Source: Salinibacter pepae
GTDB taxonomy: Bacteria > Bacteroidota > Rhodothermia > Rhodothermales > Salinibacteraceae
Assembly: GCF_947077775.1 (NCBI RefSeq)
Contig: NZ_CAMTTE010000001.1
Location: 1 to 64,000, forward strand
Direction: 5' to 3'
Length of the DNA stretch: 64,000 bases
The notes under the pieces were generated by a model. It did not search any database. It was given only the letters and a program-made list of their open reading frames with translations, and was not told the DNA's origin. A program made the position numbers and the translations under genes. Positions within the stretch are counted from its first letter, which is position 1. Each line of letters opens with the position of its first letter. Shown here in pieces: positions 29,858-55,798 of the stretch.

Positions 29858-29946
29858 GGTGGGGTGGCAGAGCCTGGTTGAATGCACCGGTCTCGAAAAC
29901 CGGAGGGCCCTCACGGGTCCCGGGGGTTCAAATCCCTCCCCCACCG
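29858..29946 (+). tRNA. tRNA-Ser (anticodon CGA), left copy
   Basis: An 89-nt cloverleaf with a long variable arm as in serine tRNAs. The acceptor stem GGTGGGG pairs with CCCCACC and the discriminator is G. The anticodon stem CCGGT/ACCGG encloses CTCGAAA, giving anticodon CGA. The T arm has GGGGGTTCAAATCCCTC-type pairing. CCA is not encoded. An identical copy lies at 55396-55484; together they flank the mobile element. Confidence 0.95.
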
Positions 29947-29947
29947 C
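29858..29947 (+). repeat. Left copy of the 90-bp flanking direct repeat (attL candidate)
   Basis: The tRNA-Ser gene plus one following base is identical to 55396-55485. Eighteen bases just upstream (29840-29857) also match the other copy with three differences. Downstream the sequences diverge at once, though both then have a similar terminator. Tyrosine recombinases commonly use tRNA genes as attachment sites, and the integrase lies about 140 bases downstream. Confidence 0.8.
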
Positions 29948-29959
29948 TGCATGAAATGG

Positions 29960-29987
29960 CCTCTCAGAGCGTTCTGAGGGGCTTTTT
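29960..29987 (+). terminator. Terminator after the left tRNA-Ser
   Basis: CCTCTCAGA and TCTGAGGGG form a hairpin (with a G-T pair) around GCGT, followed by GCTTTTTG. The equivalent hairpin follows the right tRNA copy. Confidence 0.75.
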
Positions 29988-30042
29988 GTGTTTCAGGAGT
30001 GGGTGGTGGCCACCGCCCCTCTTCCCTTCTTCAGGCGGGCTG

Positions 30043-30074
30043 ATTGCTCGATTTGAGCAATAGTTGAGCAGTCA
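30043..30074. promoter_or_regulatory. Left recombinase-type repeats upstream of the integrase
   Basis: Two tandem 11-mers, TTGAGCAATAG (30053-30063) and TTGAGCAGTCA (30064-30074), are preceded by an inverted half copy ATTGCTC at 30043. The flanks GGGCTGA and TCAGCCC make a larger inverted repeat. The sites end 10 bases before the integrase ATG. The same 11-mers occur three times near the other end (55236-55268). They are likely arm-type binding sites of the recombinase and may also repress its gene. Confidence 0.7.
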
Positions 30075-30084
30075 GCCCATTCTG

Positions 30085-31227
30085 ATGGCTTCTTTGGTCG
30101 AGCAAAACGGGTACTATTACGCCCAATTCTACGAGTCCAGCCGATCCCCTCGGCGCAAGAAAGTCCCCCTCAAGACGAAGAAGAAACGCCCCGCCCGTCG
30201 CCTTCTGGGGCGCATGGAAGATAGGTACGCGACCGGGGAGTACGATCCCTGGACCGACGGCAGGCAGCATGAACTGTTTGGTTGGGAGCCCGAACCGAGT
30301 CGCAACCTTTCGACCCTCGGTGCTGCCCGAGAAGCGTTCCTGGAGGATCGGTCCCACCTACGGCCCGAAACCATTAGGACCTACGAGGAAGTCCTTCGTC
30401 TCTTCGTCGGCTTCCATGGGAAGAGCGCTTCCGTCCGCTCGTTGAAGGCCAGCGATATTGAGGCCTGGATCTCCAGCACGGACGAGCTGGCCGATGCCAC
30501 GAAGCGGAAGTACGTCAAGCACGTGGGCTACCTCGTTCGATACCTGGTCGAGGAAGGGTGGATGGAGGAGGACATCACCAAAGAGGTGGACCTCCCGAAG
30601 GCCATCGAGCAGCCGCCACGGGCCCTTACCGAGAAGCACCAGCGAAAGCTGATCCAGGCTATCCAGGCCCACCATCAGTCCGGGGCCCGAGATGGCCGCT
30701 GCAACACGTACCCAGAGCTTCTGCTTCTGGTGCGTCTCAACCCTCTGATGGGGCTTCGCGCAAACGAGCTGATCCACCTTCGATGGAAGGACCGTGCCAG
30801 CGAGTCGGGCATGACCGTGGACCTCGAAGCGAAGACGGCTCACATCACCAACACCGCGGAGTTCACCACCAAGCCGGGACGGGGGCGTACGCTTCCTCTC
30901 CCGGACAGGGCCGTCAGATTGCTCGAGCAAGCTTCGGAGCATCGATTGGAGGGCTGCCCCTACGTATACCACACCGGCGGCGAGAAGCTTAAGTACTCGG
31001 CCCTGTCGCACGCCTTCTGCCGGTTCAGGAAGGCAGCGAGCCTTCCAGATTGGGTCCAGGTCCATTCGACACGCCACGCCTACGCAACCCGACTCGCACA
31101 AGCGGGAACCCCCATCAACGTCATCTCCCGGTTCATGGGGCACTCGTCCACCGCCGTCACTGAGCAGTACATGCACGCCAGCCCGAAGCAAGGCCATAGG
31201 CACGTGAACGACGCATTCGGAAGCTAA
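30085..31227 (+). CDS. int: Tyrosine recombinase (integrase) of the element
   Basis: A 380-residue phage-type integrase. The start MASLVEQNGYYYAQFYESSR is preferred over a TTG seven codons upstream that falls inside the binding repeats. The N-terminal part is an arm-binding-like region. A core-binding SAM-like domain covers about residues 75-170 (TLGAAREAFLEDRSHLRPET). The catalytic domain has all expected residues: the first Arg in MGLRANELIHLRW, HxxR in HSTRHAYATRLAQ, His in RFMGHSSTAV and the nucleophile Tyr in TEQYMHASP. It lies immediately inside the left tRNA-Ser, the standard place for a tRNA-targeting element's integrase. Confidence 0.93.
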   Translation: MASLVEQNGYYYAQFYESSRSPRRKKVPLKTKKKRPARRLLGRMEDRYATGEYDPWTDGRQHELFGWEPEPSRNLSTLGAAREAFLEDRSHLRPETIRTYEEVLRLFVGFHGKSASVRSLKASDIEAWISSTDELADATKRKYVKHVGYLVRYLVEEGWMEEDITKEVDLPKAIEQPPRALTEKHQRKLIQAIQAHHQSGARDGRCNTYPELLLLVRLNPLMGLRANELIHLRWKDRASESGMTVDLEAKTAHITNTAEFTTKPGRGRTLPLPDRAVRLLEQASEHRLEGCPYVYHTGGEKLKYSALSHAFCRFRKAASLPDWVQVHSTRHAYATRLAQAGTPINVISRFMGHSSTAVTEQYMHASPKQGHRHVNDAFGS

Positions 31228-36066: not shown

Positions 36067-37521
36067 ATGAAGAATCCACCAACGAGTGTCGCCTCTGGGG
36101 ACGGCCACAAGATGCCAGATCCTGAGTTAAGTGTGAGGCAGAGCAGTTCGGTCTCGCTGCTTGACTATCCTGATACGGATTCAGGTAATGCTGAACGTCT
36201 GGCGGCTCTATACAGCCATCAAATCTGCTATCGATACGATGGGGAATGCTGGCACATCTACGACCGAGAGGCTGGGGTGTGGGAAGAGGCCCAAGAGGAC
36301 GAAATTAAAAGCTTTGCCCGTAGAACAGTAAGGCAATTTCGAAATGAGCTAGAGGCCATCCAGTGCCGTCCTGGAGATAGCAGGTTCGAGTTCGCTTTGA
36401 AGTCGGAAAATAGCTCTCGATTGAACAACCTCGTACGGGAGGCAAGAACACTCGCAAAACTGAGGGTCCCTTCTGAAGAGTTCGATGCTGATCCCTTACT
36501 TCTGAATACGCAGAACGGGGTGGTTGACCTCGAAACCGGGACGCTCCGTGAGCACACACCCGAAGATTTTTTCACACGGACCTGCGGTGCGAAGTATGTG
36601 GAAGGTTCCAATGCACCTAAATGGGAAGCATTTCTGCGCACCATCTTCGATGGCGACGAGGAGCTGGTTGACTACGTGCAACGGATAGCTGGCTACGCTT
36701 TGTCTGGCTTGGCGACCGAACAATGCATGTTCATTCTGAAAGGAGATGGGGCTAATGGCAAGTCCACCTTTCTCGAGGTCTTGAGGGCAGTACTCGGTGG
36801 CTACGCGGCCAACACGCCCGTTCAAACACTTCTTCCAGGGAGTAGGCAGGGACCCGACGCAGACTTAGCACGACTGCCGAACGTCCGTTTCTTGACAGTT
36901 AGCGAGATCGAGCGTGATGAAGAGCTCGTGGAATCAAGGGTAAAGCGTCTGACGGGTGAAGACCAGATGGCCGTCCGAGACTTGTACGAAGGATACTTTG
37001 AGTACACACCGGACTTCGCTCTCTTCATGGCTACTAATCACTGGCCGAAGGTGTCTGCCAACGATTATGCGTTTTGGCGCCGGATGCGTGTGATTCCTTT
37101 CTCGGTTCGAATACCAACTGCAAAGCGGAATCCCCATCTCAAGCGGGAACTGCTAAATGAGTCAGATGGAATATTGGCTTGGGCCGTAGACGGCTTCCGG
37201 AAGTGGAAGAATAATCCTCTTCAAAACGAGCCCTTAGCGTCAAAGCAGGAGAAAAATCGGTGGAAAGGTAAGATTGACCGGTGTGTCTCCACTTTTGTTT
37301 CGAGCTGTGTAGCTCGAAAAACCGGGGAGGATGTTCGCACTCGCCACGTGTACAATGCGTACGTCAATTATTGCTCAACCAGAGACATGGAGCCGCTGAG
37401 TCACAAGCAGCTCAACATGCGTATCGAGCACCACTTCGACGGGAGCATCTACAAGAAGCGGACAGGGGCGGGTGGAAGCGCTCATTGGATTGGACTCGAA
37501 CTGTACGTAAGTGGTAAATAA
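36067..37521 (+). CDS. P4/D5-family SF3 DNA helicase (phage/plasmid primase-helicase, helicase part)
   Basis: A 484-residue protein. An N-terminal D5_N-like domain (YSHQICYRYDGECWHIYDRE, LLNTQNGVVDLETGTLREHT) precedes an SF3 helicase. Walker A is FILKGDGANGKSTFLEVLRA; a Walker B/acidic motif is FLTVSEIERDEELVES; the sensor is FALFMATNHWPKVSAND, with FWRRMRVIPF. There is no recognisable Toprim or prim-pol domain, so it may only unwind, with host priming. Such proteins initiate replication of P4-like satellites, some plasmids and integrative elements. Its GC content is clearly lower than the core genes, a sign of transfer. Confidence 0.88.
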   Translation: MKNPPTSVASGDGHKMPDPELSVRQSSSVSLLDYPDTDSGNAERLAALYSHQICYRYDGECWHIYDREAGVWEEAQEDEIKSFARRTVRQFRNELEAIQCRPGDSRFEFALKSENSSRLNNLVREARTLAKLRVPSEEFDADPLLLNTQNGVVDLETGTLREHTPEDFFTRTCGAKYVEGSNAPKWEAFLRTIFDGDEELVDYVQRIAGYALSGLATEQCMFILKGDGANGKSTFLEVLRAVLGGYAANTPVQTLLPGSRQGPDADLARLPNVRFLTVSEIERDEELVESRVKRLTGEDQMAVRDLYEGYFEYTPDFALFMATNHWPKVSANDYAFWRRMRVIPFSVRIPTAKRNPHLKRELLNESDGILAWAVDGFRKWKNNPLQNEPLASKQEKNRWKGKIDRCVSTFVSSCVARKTGEDVRTRHVYNAYVNYCSTRDMEPLSHKQLNMRIEHHFDGSIYKKRTGAGGSAHWIGLELYVSGK

Positions 37522-50360: not shown

Positions 50361-50888
50361 ATGTCAGAGGAGCACGACATGCCAGAGCAGCGTGCGTTTT
50401 CACCAGGAGAGGTTGCAACGATGCTGGGCATAGACCCCACCACGGTCTCCTCTCTGATCACAAGTGGAGAGCTTGGAAGTAAGGCGATTGGCGATGACCG
50501 GCGGATATTTCTGTCGGATCTGGAAGATTACCTCGGAGTGAAGAGGGCTCATTCTCTCGTCCGCGATATTAATTCCGATGACGGAGAAGCCAGAAAAGGT
50601 ACTCCTGAAGGCAGTATCGATTTCGAAGTAATACGCGACAGTGGCAATCACAGCAATCGTGCTCGAGCATACGAGGCGGTGGTACGGAAGTGGCGTGAGA
50701 TCGATGAAGATGAGAAGGCAATCGTGCTCGCAGACTTGTCAGAGAACGATGTTCAGAACATCAAAGATCTCCTATACCGCCGGATCGGAAAAGAGAACAT
50801 AATTATCCGCACGGCAGAGCAAGAAGACAGCACATTCAAAGCAGTCGTCAGTGCTCGGGAAGATAGTGAGTACCTACGCGAGGAGTAG
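50361..50888 (+). CDS. HTH protein with a C-terminal domain of unknown function
   Basis: A 175-residue product. Residues 12-60 are an excisionase/MerR-like helix-turn-helix (AFSPGEVATMLGIDPTTVSS, LITSGELGSKAIGDDRRIFL, SDLEDYLGVKR). The remainder (FEVIRDSGNHSNRARAYEAV, REIDEDEKAIVLADLSENDV, IIIRTAEQEDSTFKAVVSAR) is not a family I recognise. It lies 24 bases after the YgjP-like gene. It is separated from umuD by a promoter region, so it could regulate the restriction operon or the umuDC genes. Confidence 0.65.
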   Translation: MSEEHDMPEQRAFSPGEVATMLGIDPTTVSSLITSGELGSKAIGDDRRIFLSDLEDYLGVKRAHSLVRDINSDDGEARKGTPEGSIDFEVIRDSGNHSNRARAYEAVVRKWREIDEDEKAIVLADLSENDVQNIKDLLYRRIGKENIIIRTAEQEDSTFKAVVSAREDSEYLREE

Positions 50889-50976: not shown

Positions 50977-51004
50977 TTGAAATATGTGTGCTGGTTGCTA
51001 TAAT
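50977..51004 (+). promoter_or_regulatory. umuD promoter
   Basis: TTGAAA at 50977-50982 and a perfect TATAAT at 50999-51004, spaced by 16 bases. It lies 40 bases before the umuD ATG and inside a perfect inverted repeat. Confidence 0.7.
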
Positions 51005-51045
51005 GGGGGTGTCCCGCTTCTGACCAGTAACCGACCAGCACACAT
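50984..51045. promoter_or_regulatory. 12-bp inverted repeat bracketing the umuD promoter and start codon
   Basis: ATGTGTGCTGGT at 50984-50995 is the exact reverse complement of ACCAGCACACAT at 51034-51045. The left arm covers the promoter spacer; the right arm overlaps the umuD ATG. A repressor binding both arms could loop or cover the whole promoter. It is not a standard E. coli LexA box (CTGTn8ACAG). Confidence 0.75.
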
Positions 51046-51499
51046 GGCCCATTCAGGTTCCGACCACGGCCTCGTCGCCACTGCCGTCCGCAAGGCCCGC
51101 CGCGGAAAAGAAACTACTCTGCCGCTCTATCAGTCGCGGGTCCCGGCTGGATTTCCGTCGCCGGCAGATGATCACGTAGAGACCGCTCTCGACCTCAGCG
51201 CGGAGCCCATTGAGAAAGAAGAGTCAACCTTTTTCGTTCGCGTGGCGGGTGACTCGATGACGGAAGCAGGGATTCACGACGGCGACATCCTGGTGGTAGA
51301 TCGGTCGATTGAGCCGGAGGATGGCTCGGTTGTGGTAGCGGCCTTAGATGGGGAGTTGACGGTCAAACGATACGAGGTACGTTCCGGCTATCCATATCTG
51401 ATGCCGGAGGCAGATGGGTATGACCCGATCCCAATTCGGAACGGCCAGGAGCTGGTCGTATGGGGCGTTGTGCGGCACGTGGTCCATGAGGTGTCGTAG
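51044..51499 (+). CDS. umuD: UmuD-like S24 autoprotease
   Basis: A 151-residue S24/LexA-type protein from MAHSGSDHGLVATAVRKARR. The self-cleavage site is expected at the Ala-Gly of SRVPAGFPSPADDH near residue 40. The catalytic Ser is in FFVRVAGDSMTEAGIHDGDI and the catalytic Lys in VVVAALDGELTVKRYEV. It lacks a DNA-binding domain, so it is UmuD rather than LexA. After RecA-stimulated cleavage UmuD' would pair with UmuC to form polymerase V. The start codon overlaps the right arm of the inverted repeat. Confidence 0.93.
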   Translation: MAHSGSDHGLVATAVRKARRGKETTLPLYQSRVPAGFPSPADDHVETALDLSAEPIEKEESTFFVRVAGDSMTEAGIHDGDILVVDRSIEPEDGSVVVAALDGELTVKRYEVRSGYPYLMPEADGYDPIPIRNGQELVVWGVVRHVVHEVS

Positions 51500-51593
51500 G
51501 GGGTCGCCTTGCATTTTCGACGCCTTGTCGGGCCCCGTGGAGGCCCACAGCGACTGTCTGCCTCATGTCTGTCTCGGCACTTGGTCTGGCCTC

Positions 51594-52874
51594 ATGCAGC
51601 GAGTCTTTGCTCTCGTCGACTGTGAGAACTTCTACGCCTCTTGCGAGCGAGTTTTCGATCCGTCCCTGCGGGATCGCCCCGTCGCGGTGCTGTCGAATAA
51701 CGACGGGTGTATCATCGCCCGAAGCGAAGAGGTGAAGCAGGCGGGCGTGCCGATGGGGGCACCCGTCTTCAAGTGGGACGAGGAGCTTGAAGCGATGGGA
51801 GCCGAAGTCCTGTCCTCCAACTACATGCTTTACGGGGACATGTCTCGCCGCGTCCACTCGATCTTGGAGGAGGATGCCTTGGAGCTGGAGCGGTATTCGA
51901 TCGATGAAGCCTTTCTCACCCTTCCTGCGCTGGAGAGGGGGGAGCTCCAGAAGCTGGCCGACCGTGTGCGGAAGAAGGTGCGCCGGCACGTCGGCGTGCC
52001 GATACGCGTCGGCATTGGCCCGACGAAGACCCTCGCGAAGGTGGCCGATGAGAACGCGAAGGCTCGCAAGCGTGCGGGATGGGGAGAAGGCACGTACGTC
52101 TGCCCGCCAGAACCGAAACTCGAGGAGTTGCTCAAGCGCGTCCCGGTCGGGGACATCTGGGGCATTGGCAGCGCCTACGAGGAGACGCTACACGGCAAAG
52201 GAGTGGCCACCGCCGCGGGGTTTCGGGCCCTCCCGGACCCTTGGATTCGAAGTGAAATGACGGTCGTCGGCCTGCGGACGGCATGGGAGCTTCGGGGGCG
52301 GTCGTGCCTGGATCTGGAGCTGGTACGCCCCGACCGGAAGACCCTCGTGCGGTCCCGGTCGTTCGGGGAGCGAGTGGAGTCGAAAAAGAATCTGCGCGAG
52401 GCACTTGCCAAGCACGCCCAACGGGCCGCGGAAATGCTTCGAGAGGAAGGGCTCGTCGCAAAGGGCATCAAGGTGTTCGTCACGACGAAACGGTTCGGGG
52501 AACCGCCGTACTACTCGAATGGTGTGGCGGGAGCTCTCGGGGAGCACACGGCCCGTGCAGCGCCGTTTGTGCGAGCATCCCGGCGACTCCTCGAACCGAT
52601 CTATCGAGGCGGGTACGGGTACAAGAAAGCTGGCGTAATGCTCTACGACATCCATCCGAGCCGTCCGCACCAGGAGAGTCTCTTTAGCCGAGGGAGGGAA
52701 CAAGACGAGCGATTGATGGAGGCGGTGGATCGCATCAACCAAACGCACGGGAAGGAAACCATCGGCATTGCGGCGGCAGGCTTCCCGGGAGAGCGAGACT
52801 GGGCCATGAAACGCCAGAAGCGGAGCCCCCGGTATACGACCCGCTGGGATGAGCTGCCGGTGGCCGTAGCCTGA
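51594..52874 (+). CDS. umuC: UmuC-like Y-family polymerase (Pol V subunit)
   Basis: A 426-residue translesion polymerase. It starts MQRVFALVDCENFYASCERV with the first catalytic Asp. The second acidic pair is in ERYSIDEAFLTLPAL, and RPVAVLSNNDGCIIARSEEV is the UmuC signature. The little-finger region contains SRSFGERVESKKNLREALAK. The C-terminal GYGYKKAGVMLYDIHPSRPH, then the QESLF beta-clamp-like motif, are typical of UmuC. It lies 94 bases after umuD in the same direction. Confidence 0.95.
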   Translation: MQRVFALVDCENFYASCERVFDPSLRDRPVAVLSNNDGCIIARSEEVKQAGVPMGAPVFKWDEELEAMGAEVLSSNYMLYGDMSRRVHSILEEDALELERYSIDEAFLTLPALERGELQKLADRVRKKVRRHVGVPIRVGIGPTKTLAKVADENAKARKRAGWGEGTYVCPPEPKLEELLKRVPVGDIWGIGSAYEETLHGKGVATAAGFRALPDPWIRSEMTVVGLRTAWELRGRSCLDLELVRPDRKTLVRSRSFGERVESKKNLREALAKHAQRAAEMLREEGLVAKGIKVFVTTKRFGEPPYYSNGVAGALGEHTARAAPFVRASRRLLEPIYRGGYGYKKAGVMLYDIHPSRPHQESLFSRGREQDERLMEAVDRINQTHGKETIGIAAAGFPGERDWAMKRQKRSPRYTTRWDELPVAVA

Positions 52875-52908
52875 CTACATTGATCGCAAATCTATCTGTG
52901 GGTTGACT

Positions 52909-53751
52909 ATGAGCCATTATCAGGAAGATGAACTGGATGTAGAGTCCCCTGAGGAACGATTGGAAGAGATTTCGGAAACCGTGAGGGAGATAAGTAGGCA
53001 CCTGATAGGGAGCGGGATCCAGTACATGGCCAAGGTTTCAGGCGAAATGGCCGATGACGATATGGTTCGTATCCGCAACAATGTGCAATATCGGGCAGAC
53101 GCACTCAAGATACAGCTCTCATTGCTGCTTGATATTCAGTCAACTCATAATGATATCGCAGAAAGTGTTGGGCCACATGCGCCCTATCCTTCTAGACAAC
53201 TATCCCGCGAGCAGTTTTCGATGTTCGATAATATAGTATTTCACTCCTGCTCCTTATTCGACTACGTAGGCTACCTTGCTCATTTCTTGTGCGGATTAGG
53301 AAACCAGGCCAAGAAGAGTTGGGGGAGCGTTGCCAAGGCCCTGCGAGACGACGAAAACGAAATAAGAGACTGTATCGCTGGACCTGTTATTCGCCGCCTG
53401 GACCGCCGATGGGTTAGTCAGTTGTTTGATTACCGGGCGGACTTGATCCACTACAACGCTCGGCTAGGGGGCGTAATGAATACTGCAGATTTGGAAAAAC
53501 GGGAAAGGGTTCTCAAGGCATACGCTCCTAGTCGGTTTGTCAGCGACATGAGTGGCCTTCGCAAGAAAGCGGGGGATCAACATGTCACACTTCGATTTGC
53601 GGCATTCTGGCTCACTGAGAAAACACTCGACTCCGTACTGCGAGTCCTGAAAAACCTTAGTGAAGTGATCGAAAACAACCGTCAGATTCCCCGTCACCTA
53701 CAACCAATCAAGTTCAGTCCGCCTGATGAAGAGTCTGATGCGGATGAGTAG
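52909..53751 (+). CDS. HEPN-like protein of unknown function
   Basis: A 280-residue mostly helical protein (MSHYQEDELDVESPEERLEE onward; TTG two codons earlier is an alternative). It shows LFDYRADLIHYNARLGG, where R-A-D-L-I-H fits the RxxxxH form of HEPN domains. A helical partner region is CSLFDYVGYLAHFLCGLGNQ followed by AKKSWGSVAKAL. HEPN proteins are often RNases or toxins in defence islands, but the usual polar residue after Arg is absent. It lies between umuC and dinB. GC content is lower than its neighbours. Confidence 0.45.
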   Translation: MSHYQEDELDVESPEERLEEISETVREISRHLIGSGIQYMAKVSGEMADDDMVRIRNNVQYRADALKIQLSLLLDIQSTHNDIAESVGPHAPYPSRQLSREQFSMFDNIVFHSCSLFDYVGYLAHFLCGLGNQAKKSWGSVAKALRDDENEIRDCIAGPVIRRLDRRWVSQLFDYRADLIHYNARLGGVMNTADLEKRERVLKAYAPSRFVSDMSGLRKKAGDQHVTLRFAAFWLTEKTLDSVLRVLKNLSEVIENNRQIPRHLQPIKFSPPDEESDADE

Positions 53752-53865
53752 ATCTCGTTGAATTTGAGCGCCTTACAACTGTCGGGGCTGGTAGCATTCG
53801 GCCTGCACGTGCCTACGACATCGTAGCCATTCTGGAGTGACGGCGCACTAAGGTCAATCACAATC

Positions 53866-53904
53866 TGGACACTTGAACCTTTGCTTATAACCAAAAAGTG
53901 TCCA
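53866..53904. promoter_or_regulatory. 9-bp inverted repeat before the element's dinB
   Basis: TGGACACTT at 53866-53874 is the exact reverse complement of AAGTGTCCA at 53896-53904. TATAAC lies between them. The right arm ends five bases before the dinB ATG. The geometry resembles the umuD operator, but the sequence differs. Confidence 0.6.
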
Positions 53905-53909
53905 AGTCT

Positions 53910-55037
53910 ATGGGGAAAACGGAGGAGATACTTTCCGACAGTAAAGAGCAGGAAGCGCGCCGTATCGTCCACGTCGACATGGACGCGTTCTACGCGGCGA
54001 TTGAGCAGCGAGACAATCCGGAGAAGTACGCCGGGGAGCCAATCGCCGTGGGAGGCAAGCCCCCACGAGGCGTGGTCCAGACGGCCAGCTACGAGGCGCG
54101 TCCGTACGGCGTGCATTCGGCGCAGCCGGCGATCGAAGCTGATCGGAAGTGCCCCGATCTCATTTTCGTCTCGCCCCGGATGGACGTGTATCAGGAGGAG
54201 TCAAAGCGCATCAGGAAGATCTTGCTTCGCTACACCGACCTCGTTGAGCCTCTATCTTTGGATGAGGCGTACTTGGACGTCTCCGACCCGAAGAAAGGGC
54301 CGCCCTCTGGGACGCTGATCGCCCGGCGCATCCGCGAGGAGATCTATGAGGAGACGGGCTTGACTGCTTCGGCGGGGGTTGGCCCCAGCAAGTTCGTCGC
54401 AAAGGTCGCCTCCGACCGAGACAAGCCCGATGGCCTGACGGTGGTTCGGCCCGCAGATCAAGCAGGGTTCATCGCCGAGTTACCGATCGAGGACTTTCAC
54501 GGCATTGGCCCCGTCACCGCGGAGAAGATGCAGAACCTCAGCATCGAAACTGGGGCCGACTTGCAGGAAACGCCGGAGCGAGAGCTGACTCATCACTTCG
54601 GGAAACGGGGCCGCCACTTCAAGAAACTGGCGATGGGGGAGGACGACCGTCCGGTAAAGCCCGACCGGGAACGCAAGTCTGTGGGGGCCGAGCGGACCTT
54701 CTCCGAGGACATCGCAAAGCCGGGGGCCATGCTCGACCAACTTCGTCCGATCGCAGAGAGGGTCGCAGAGAGGCTCCAGGACGCCGACCAACAGGGTCGT
54801 ACGGTTACACTGAAACTCAAGAGCCATGACCACGAGGTGTCCACCCGCCAGACCACGCTGGATCGTCCCGTCGATTCGAAGCAGGATTTGATGGTGCTTG
54901 TGAGGCGTCTTTTAAAGCGACCCCATGCTCCGGAAGAGCCGGTGCGCTTGCTTGGCATAAGCGTCTCATCCCTTGATGGAAGGGGCGGTGGACCGCAGCA
55001 GTTGGAGCTAAACTTCAGAAAGCAAACCACTGGTTAG
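53910..55037 (+). CDS. dinB: DNA polymerase IV-like Y-family polymerase, element copy
   Basis: A 375-residue DinB (GTG at 53898 gives four more residues). The catalytic residues are in RRIVHVDMDAFYAAIEQRD and EPLSLDEAYLDVSDPKK. The thumb has LPIEDFHGIGPVTAEKMQNL, a helix-hairpin-helix. The little finger contains GAERTFSEDIAKPG and LKLKSHDHEVSTRQTTL. The end QLELNFRK is a likely beta-clamp motif. By eye about four residues in five match the chromosomal copy at 58904. It is the last gene before the right end of the element. Confidence 0.93.
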   Translation: MGKTEEILSDSKEQEARRIVHVDMDAFYAAIEQRDNPEKYAGEPIAVGGKPPRGVVQTASYEARPYGVHSAQPAIEADRKCPDLIFVSPRMDVYQEESKRIRKILLRYTDLVEPLSLDEAYLDVSDPKKGPPSGTLIARRIREEIYEETGLTASAGVGPSKFVAKVASDRDKPDGLTVVRPADQAGFIAELPIEDFHGIGPVTAEKMQNLSIETGADLQETPERELTHHFGKRGRHFKKLAMGEDDRPVKPDRERKSVGAERTFSEDIAKPGAMLDQLRPIAERVAERLQDADQQGRTVTLKLKSHDHEVSTRQTTLDRPVDSKQDLMVLVRRLLKRPHAPEEPVRLLGISVSSLDGRGGGPQQLELNFRKQTTG

Positions 55038-55235: not shown

Positions 55236-55268
55236 TTGAGCAATAATTGAGCAGTAATTGAGCAGTCA
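55236..55268. repeat. Three tandem 11-mers at the right end (recombinase-type sites)
   Basis: TTGAGCAATAA (55236-55246), TTGAGCAGTAA (55247-55257) and TTGAGCAGTCA (55258-55268) are contiguous. They match the two 11-mers just upstream of the integrase gene. Identical sites near both ends of the element are what arm-type integrase sites look like. Confidence 0.8.
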
Positions 55269-55395: not shown

Positions 55396-55484
55396 GGTGG
55401 GGTGGCAGAGCCTGGTTGAATGCACCGGTCTCGAAAACCGGAGGGCCCTCACGGGTCCCGGGGGTTCAAATCCCTCCCCCACCG
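55396..55484 (+). tRNA. tRNA-Ser (anticodon CGA), right copy
   Basis: Identical over 89 bases to the copy at 29858, with the same acceptor stem, long variable arm and CGA anticodon. The upstream 18 bases differ in three positions. It marks the right boundary of the element. Confidence 0.95.
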
Positions 55485-55485
55485 C
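55396..55485 (+). repeat. Right copy of the 90-bp flanking direct repeat (attR candidate)
   Basis: Same 90 bases as 29858-29947. Both copies are complete tRNA genes, unlike many islands in which one side keeps only the 3' end. Either the element carries a whole tRNA-Ser or the tRNA was duplicated first. Confidence 0.8.
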
Positions 55486-55506
55486 CGACCCACACTCCGA
55501 ATATCG

Positions 55507-55534: not shown

Positions 55535-55600
55535 AATTGTGGAGGGCTCTGCCGTTAGGGGCCCTTTTCAAAAAGGGCCCTGAAAACGAAGAAAAAGCGT

Positions 55601-55798
55601 GTGGCGTCTCCTGAGCCGAGCGGATCATATATCACGGGGCCAGTCCTGTCCTGTGGGTCGACTGACAAAACGGTGTACGTGACCGACTGGCCCGACGGCC
55701 GTGTCCGCGTTCTGGACGCAACTCCCCTGTCTCAGCAGAACGTCATCTCCGGTTCTGCCATCAATGCGCCCTTGTCGGTCAACGTCGCAGGCAAGTAG
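55601..55798 (+). pseudogene. Fragment of a beta-propeller protein
   Basis: Sixty-five codons read GSTDKTVYVTDWPDGRVRVL followed by DATPLSQQNVISG, the pattern of one blade of a YVTN/NHL-type propeller. There is no start module and the frame stops after about 1.5 blades. Remnant of a larger gene. Confidence 0.35.

Follow-up and report, generated by a model that had tools for sequence, protein, structure and literature searches.

Phased 11-bp repeats at both ends of a tRNA-Ser island of Salinibacter pepae as predicted arm-type sites of its tyrosine integrase

Background

Among the closest described systems are the attP regions of the cluster K mycobacteriophages CrimD and Pixie, in which 11-bp repeats occur in pairs on both sides of the core; in Pixie attP, two sites stand as a direct pair and three as a direct triplet, and a further one is inverted (PMC3203893). 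The genomic island described here has the same set of sites as Pixie, the words change between related integrases in both systems, and the arm sites of CrimD and Pixie were likewise predicted from sequence (PMC3203893). Those examples are mycobacteriophages, whereas the present case is a genomic island of a Salinibacter-type bacterium, in which the pair and the inverted copy share the int side of the core, unlike in Pixie.

The integrase of phage lambda offers a second comparison. Its three domains and N-terminal arm-binding fold recur in the model of the island integrase, as do, at the level of predicted sites, the arms on both sides of the core known from lambda attP. The two differ in sequence (16–19% identity) and in the site itself, and the island targets the anticodon region of a tRNA gene. 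At KplE1 intS of E. coli, tRNA and int are co-oriented, as in the island, and arm-type sites lie in the int promoter region, as they may in the island; autoregulation was measured there (PMC2951348), whereas here it is suggested by the layout only.

As in Islander islands (PMC4383910) and in tRNA-dependent lysogeny (PMC10865867), the element brings tRNA sequence and tRNA function survives integration. The 5' half of the tRNA is displaced in 159 of 3919 Islander islands (PMC4383910), a minority polarity shared by some relatives of the present element. tRNA-dependent lysogeny rebuilds no tRNA at the junction (PMC10865867), whereas the present island has an intact tRNA-Ser at both junctions. Our literature search found no arm sites described in the Salinibacter-type bacterial group. 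This kind of system has long been known; the island is a well-supported further case, from a group without described arm sites in the literature found.

Results

Island limits and 11-bp repeats

The window, i.e. the whole stretch of DNA that was analysed, comprises positions 1–64,000 of contig NZ_CAMTTE010000001.1 of Salinibacter pepae (GCF_947077775.1); all coordinates without a locus label refer to it. The main features are as follows.

29858..29947, +, tRNA-Ser(CGA), left att copy; upstream flank host, downstream flank element
29958..29983, +, terminator-like stem-loop between the left tRNA and the int-end arm (consensus match only)
30041..30051, −, predicted int-end arm, inverted copy TCGAGCAATCA with one mismatch (sequence search)
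30053..30074, +, predicted int-end arm, two contiguous direct 11-bp copies TTGAGCAATAG TTGAGCAGTCA (sequence search)
30085..31227, +, tyrosine integrase (int), 380 aa; predicted N-terminal arm-binding fold, core-binding and catalytic domains
50361..50888, +, HTH_17 protein, putatively a directionality factor (candidate only)
55236..55268, +, predicted far-end arm, three contiguous direct 11-bp copies TTGAGCAATAA TTGAGCAGTAA TTGAGCAGTCA (sequence search)
55396..55486, +, tRNA-Ser(CGA), right att copy; upstream flank element, downstream flank host

The island is about 25.4 kb long and its att region is the tRNA-Ser, of which 90 bp are identical at both island ends. Since this identity spans the whole 90-bp tRNA, both junctions have an intact tRNA-Ser and the island carries its own whole copy; islands bounded in this way by two full tRNAs would escape methods based on finding a tRNA fragment. 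A close relative without the island (G005) joins the same flanks, identifying the sequence on the left up to the tRNA, and on the right from the tRNA on, as host. An int scar means that the G005 site is not a clean empty one; the host flanks can nevertheless be told from it. The locus thereby combines the attributes of a tRNA-targeting island: a tRNA direct repeat at both ends, one integrase inside, and an empty site, albeit with an int scar, in a relative.

The cargo comprises a TnpB-like protein, a D5_N/DUF5906 helicase-primase, a nuclease, a type I restriction-modification system, a YgjP-like protein, the HTH_17 protein, a UmuD-like peptidase and two Y-family polymerases. The UmuD-like peptidase and the UmuC-like and DinB-like Y-family polymerases lie in a row at 50984–55037, adjoining the far end, and constitute SOS mutagenesis cargo on a mobile island. 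The helicase-primase (36067–37521) suggests that the excised element may replicate as a phage satellite or plasmid.

Exact copies of TTGAGCARTMR were located at 55236–55246, 55247–55257 and 55258–55268 (+), i.e. the three contiguous 11-mers of the original prediction, and at 30053–30063 and 30064–30074 (+). The latter two, together with the inverted copy and its single mismatch, make up the left set (30041–30074), which the original prediction had described as two contiguous copies plus an inverted half at 30043–30074. Also as predicted, both sets are noncoding and lie just inside the tRNA genes, each between a complete tRNA-Ser(CGA) and the element interior, and the left set stops 10 bp short of the int ATG (30085) that opens the 380-aa ORF. 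The sequence surrounding the left set is unrelated to that surrounding the right set. A scan for sigma-70-type promoters recognised none for int.

Confinement of the repeats

The expectation that pairs of the 11-mer would be confined to the element was borne out in this genome. A search of all 3.63 Mb for the 22-bp tandem pair, allowing up to 2 mismatches, found it only at the element's two ends, and a reversed control pattern gave 0 matches. Single exact 11-mers occur 12 times, five of them within the arrays and seven outside; the single copy was rejected as a marker for this reason, and tandem phasing is the diagnostic signal. An extra exact copy at 37368–37378 (−), within the D5-type helicase gene, is probably due to chance. 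When 1 mismatch was allowed, the tandem pattern had eight matches in 114 genomes of the order, six of which matches are tRNA-flanked element ends or the scar of one; the remaining two, in coding sequence, are chance matches. These pair searches of genome and order led us to reject a chance origin of the arrays.

The integrase

The integrase matches Pfam family PF00589. Its residues R225, K263 and H353 are invariant, and H327, R330 and Y362 nearly so, among 35 relatives. The AlphaFold2 model (pLDDT 91) aligns with lambda Int over all three domains, at 16–19% identity in structural alignments; its core-binding and catalytic part also aligns with Tn1549 Int. Modelled alone with AlphaFold2, the N-terminal 64 residues, which precede the core-binding domain, fold into three strands and one helix; arm-binding domains have been described in just these terms, as a mark of mobile-element integrases (PMC8138268). 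Among the chains compared, the best structural match of this domain is an AP2 DNA-binding domain (Z 5.9, 58 residues, rmsd 2.7), followed by the lambda Int N-terminal domain (Z 5.0, 45 residues, rmsd 2.8); Z values of 5–6 for these model-based matches are modest. Foldseek alone gave no significant match for this small domain, and no Pfam family matched it. Judged by its catalytic residues and predicted N-terminal fold, the enzyme belongs to the arm-binding-domain (lambda/Tn916-type) tyrosine integrases. Its best phage matches are below 60% identity (23–27% among the matches listed).

Decayed remains of the start of a related int gene lie at the same tRNA-Ser(CGA) in G005 and G002 (L093:1300–1490, −, and L189:1490–1560), indicating that the site has been invaded repeatedly by such elements. 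The G002 scar has kept the inverted and both direct 11-mers, and in the G005 scar these copies are partly decayed. By eye, the host flank right of the tRNA in the window (55568–55662) also seems to hold an int relic.

Related elements

Direct repeats of at least 8/9 bases were scored in the 110-bp upstream regions of 52 related integrases from the same order. A period of 11 was found in 15 of these regions and a period of 12 in six, against shuffle means of 0.9 and 0.45, respectively; the corresponding values for upstream regions of other ORFs were 1.9% and 3.1%. Periods of 7–10 and 13–22 were near background in the 52 regions, none being enriched. The motif words vary with the integrase (GATAGCAG in G004, TATAACAA in G002, GTGTRCAG in G001 and TGCGGAAG in G046), and TCGTAGCA is common to G063, G061 and G058. 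An inverted third copy is not general, being clear in five of 12 int ends and borderline in one. Some related int genes (L008, L009 and L011) have directly upstream a small ORF that reads as HTH_17-type and excisionase-like and may encode the directionality factor of those elements.

The int-end word of each element was then searched for across the element side and, where the contig permitted, the host side. In ten elements (G004, G002, G001, G063, G061, G058, G060, G046, G086a and G086b) the element's own word recurs as a tandem pair at the far end, no more than about 70–160 bp from an exact copy, 35–100 bp long, of the int-end att region, which consists of all or part of a tRNA. A twelfth element, counting that of the window, is G012: its far end lies on another contig and was found by motif search alone, with three phased copies beside a second copy of tRNA-Thr. 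In a matrix of cognate against non-cognate words the top score at the far ends went to the cognate word or a sister from the TCGTAGCA group, with ties in two rows, and chance likeness of the ends was rejected on this basis. The period at the far end equals that at the int end in the 11 elements scored, being 12 in G001 and 11 in the other ten. Taken alone, the far-end matches of G002 (11 of 300 shuffles were as good) and G060 are weak; the G060 far end rests on its position beside the second tRNA-Phe copy, because host-side matches scored equally. For G006, G059, G098 and G099 the search gave no far-end array; of these, G059, G098 and G099 are on short contigs.

Motif similarity correlates about equally with similarity of the N-terminal part (Spearman 0.39) and of the catalytic part (0.38) over 66 pairs, which are not independent. 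The integrases of G000 and G012, which have the TTGAGCA word in common, share 52% identity in the N-terminal part and only 22% in the core-plus-catalytic part.

At the int-side junction of G004, G002, G058 and G060 only the 5' half of the tRNA is kept (L058:18454–18545 and L060; L061:10106–10196 and L064; L181 and L039; L131 and L075), which means that the element brings the 5' half; in G046, G086a and G086b it is the 3' half that comes with the element. In the G001 element, the tRNA-Leu on the int side (L070:1052–1190) seems to contain about 45 inserted bp close to its 5' end.

Discussion

We propose that the 11-mers very probably serve as arm-type binding sites for the tyrosine integrase which the element itself encodes and which is of the lambda (arm-binding-domain) type, as read from the sequence, and the original prediction to this effect is supported. 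Tandem pairs occur genome-wide solely at the two ends of the element, the words differ between relatives yet match between ends in 12 elements including that of the window, int scars at the same tRNA-Ser keep the array, and the three-domain model, with its predicted N-terminal arm-binding fold, matches lambda Int. As expected of arm-type sites, the arrays flank the att core on both sides, lying inside both att copies, and their words change together in relatives.

The alternative that survives best, albeit as an improbable one, is that the 11-mers are bound not by the integrase but by the recombination directionality factor (excisionase) of the element, a candidate being the HTH_17 protein encoded within it at 50361–50888. 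Such factors also bind phased direct repeats in att regions. The sites of one of them, TorI, also overlap the intS region (PMC2951348). The copies found here lie at both ends and directly before int, whereas lambda Xis sites are known from one arm only. Moreover, an integrase with the predicted arm-binding fold would itself require sites, and among the repeats reported for the two att flanks there is no second family.

Very unlikely is a role of the arrays as regulator operators or as replication iterons, e.g. for the D5-type helicase-primase of the element, with no part in recombination: short phased repeats are generally typical of both, but the arrays are confined to element ends and lie, away from the helicase gene, at both att flanks of 12 elements with differing words. 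Chance similarity, or simple duplication of one end's sequence at the other, could draw on the single 11-mers elsewhere in the genome and is hardly credible given that tandem pairs are absent elsewhere, that the surroundings of the two sets are unrelated, and that relatives have the same geometry with other words and matching motif changes at both ends.

If the 11-mers are arm-type sites of the integrase, the three direct copies would be followed in the excised circle, after about 165 bp, by the crossover; about 150 bp would separate the latter from the one inverted and two direct copies, beyond which lies int. The crossover would sit in the anticodon stem-loop of tRNA-Ser, because the att repeats of relatives end there whether the 5' half (G004, G002, G058 and G060) or the 3' half (G046, G086a and G086b) is brought. 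By analogy with lambda, the N-terminal domain of each integrase subunit (a three-stranded sheet and a helix) would grip one 11-bp arm site while its catalytic domain is on the core, and integrase subunits would in this way bridge arm and core. Arm occupancy, a directionality factor and a DNA-bending protein together would set integration versus excision.

Negative autoregulation of int through the copies just before its start codon is plausible. The idea is based on the layout, in which tRNA and int have the same orientation and the sites all lie less than 45 bp from the int start, and on the work on intS (PMC2951348).

What began as a guess on short repeats has thus become a set of predicted arm sites backed by a dozen elements, and with it a predicted attP anatomy of a Salinibacter-type island has been obtained. 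A wider proposition, which we regard as evenly balanced, is that the order harbours a family of tRNA-targeting integrases for which the arms are spelled in phased tandem words of 11 or 12 bp; the words would differ from element to element, with the arrangement at both ends kept. If true, such arrays could delimit islands that leave two intact tRNAs and are filtered out by tRNA-fragment methods such as Islander. The paired integrase and site sequences could likewise decode the DNA choice of the arm-binding domain, and this set of integrase/arm-site pairs with changing specificity could be used to test DNA recognition by so small a domain.
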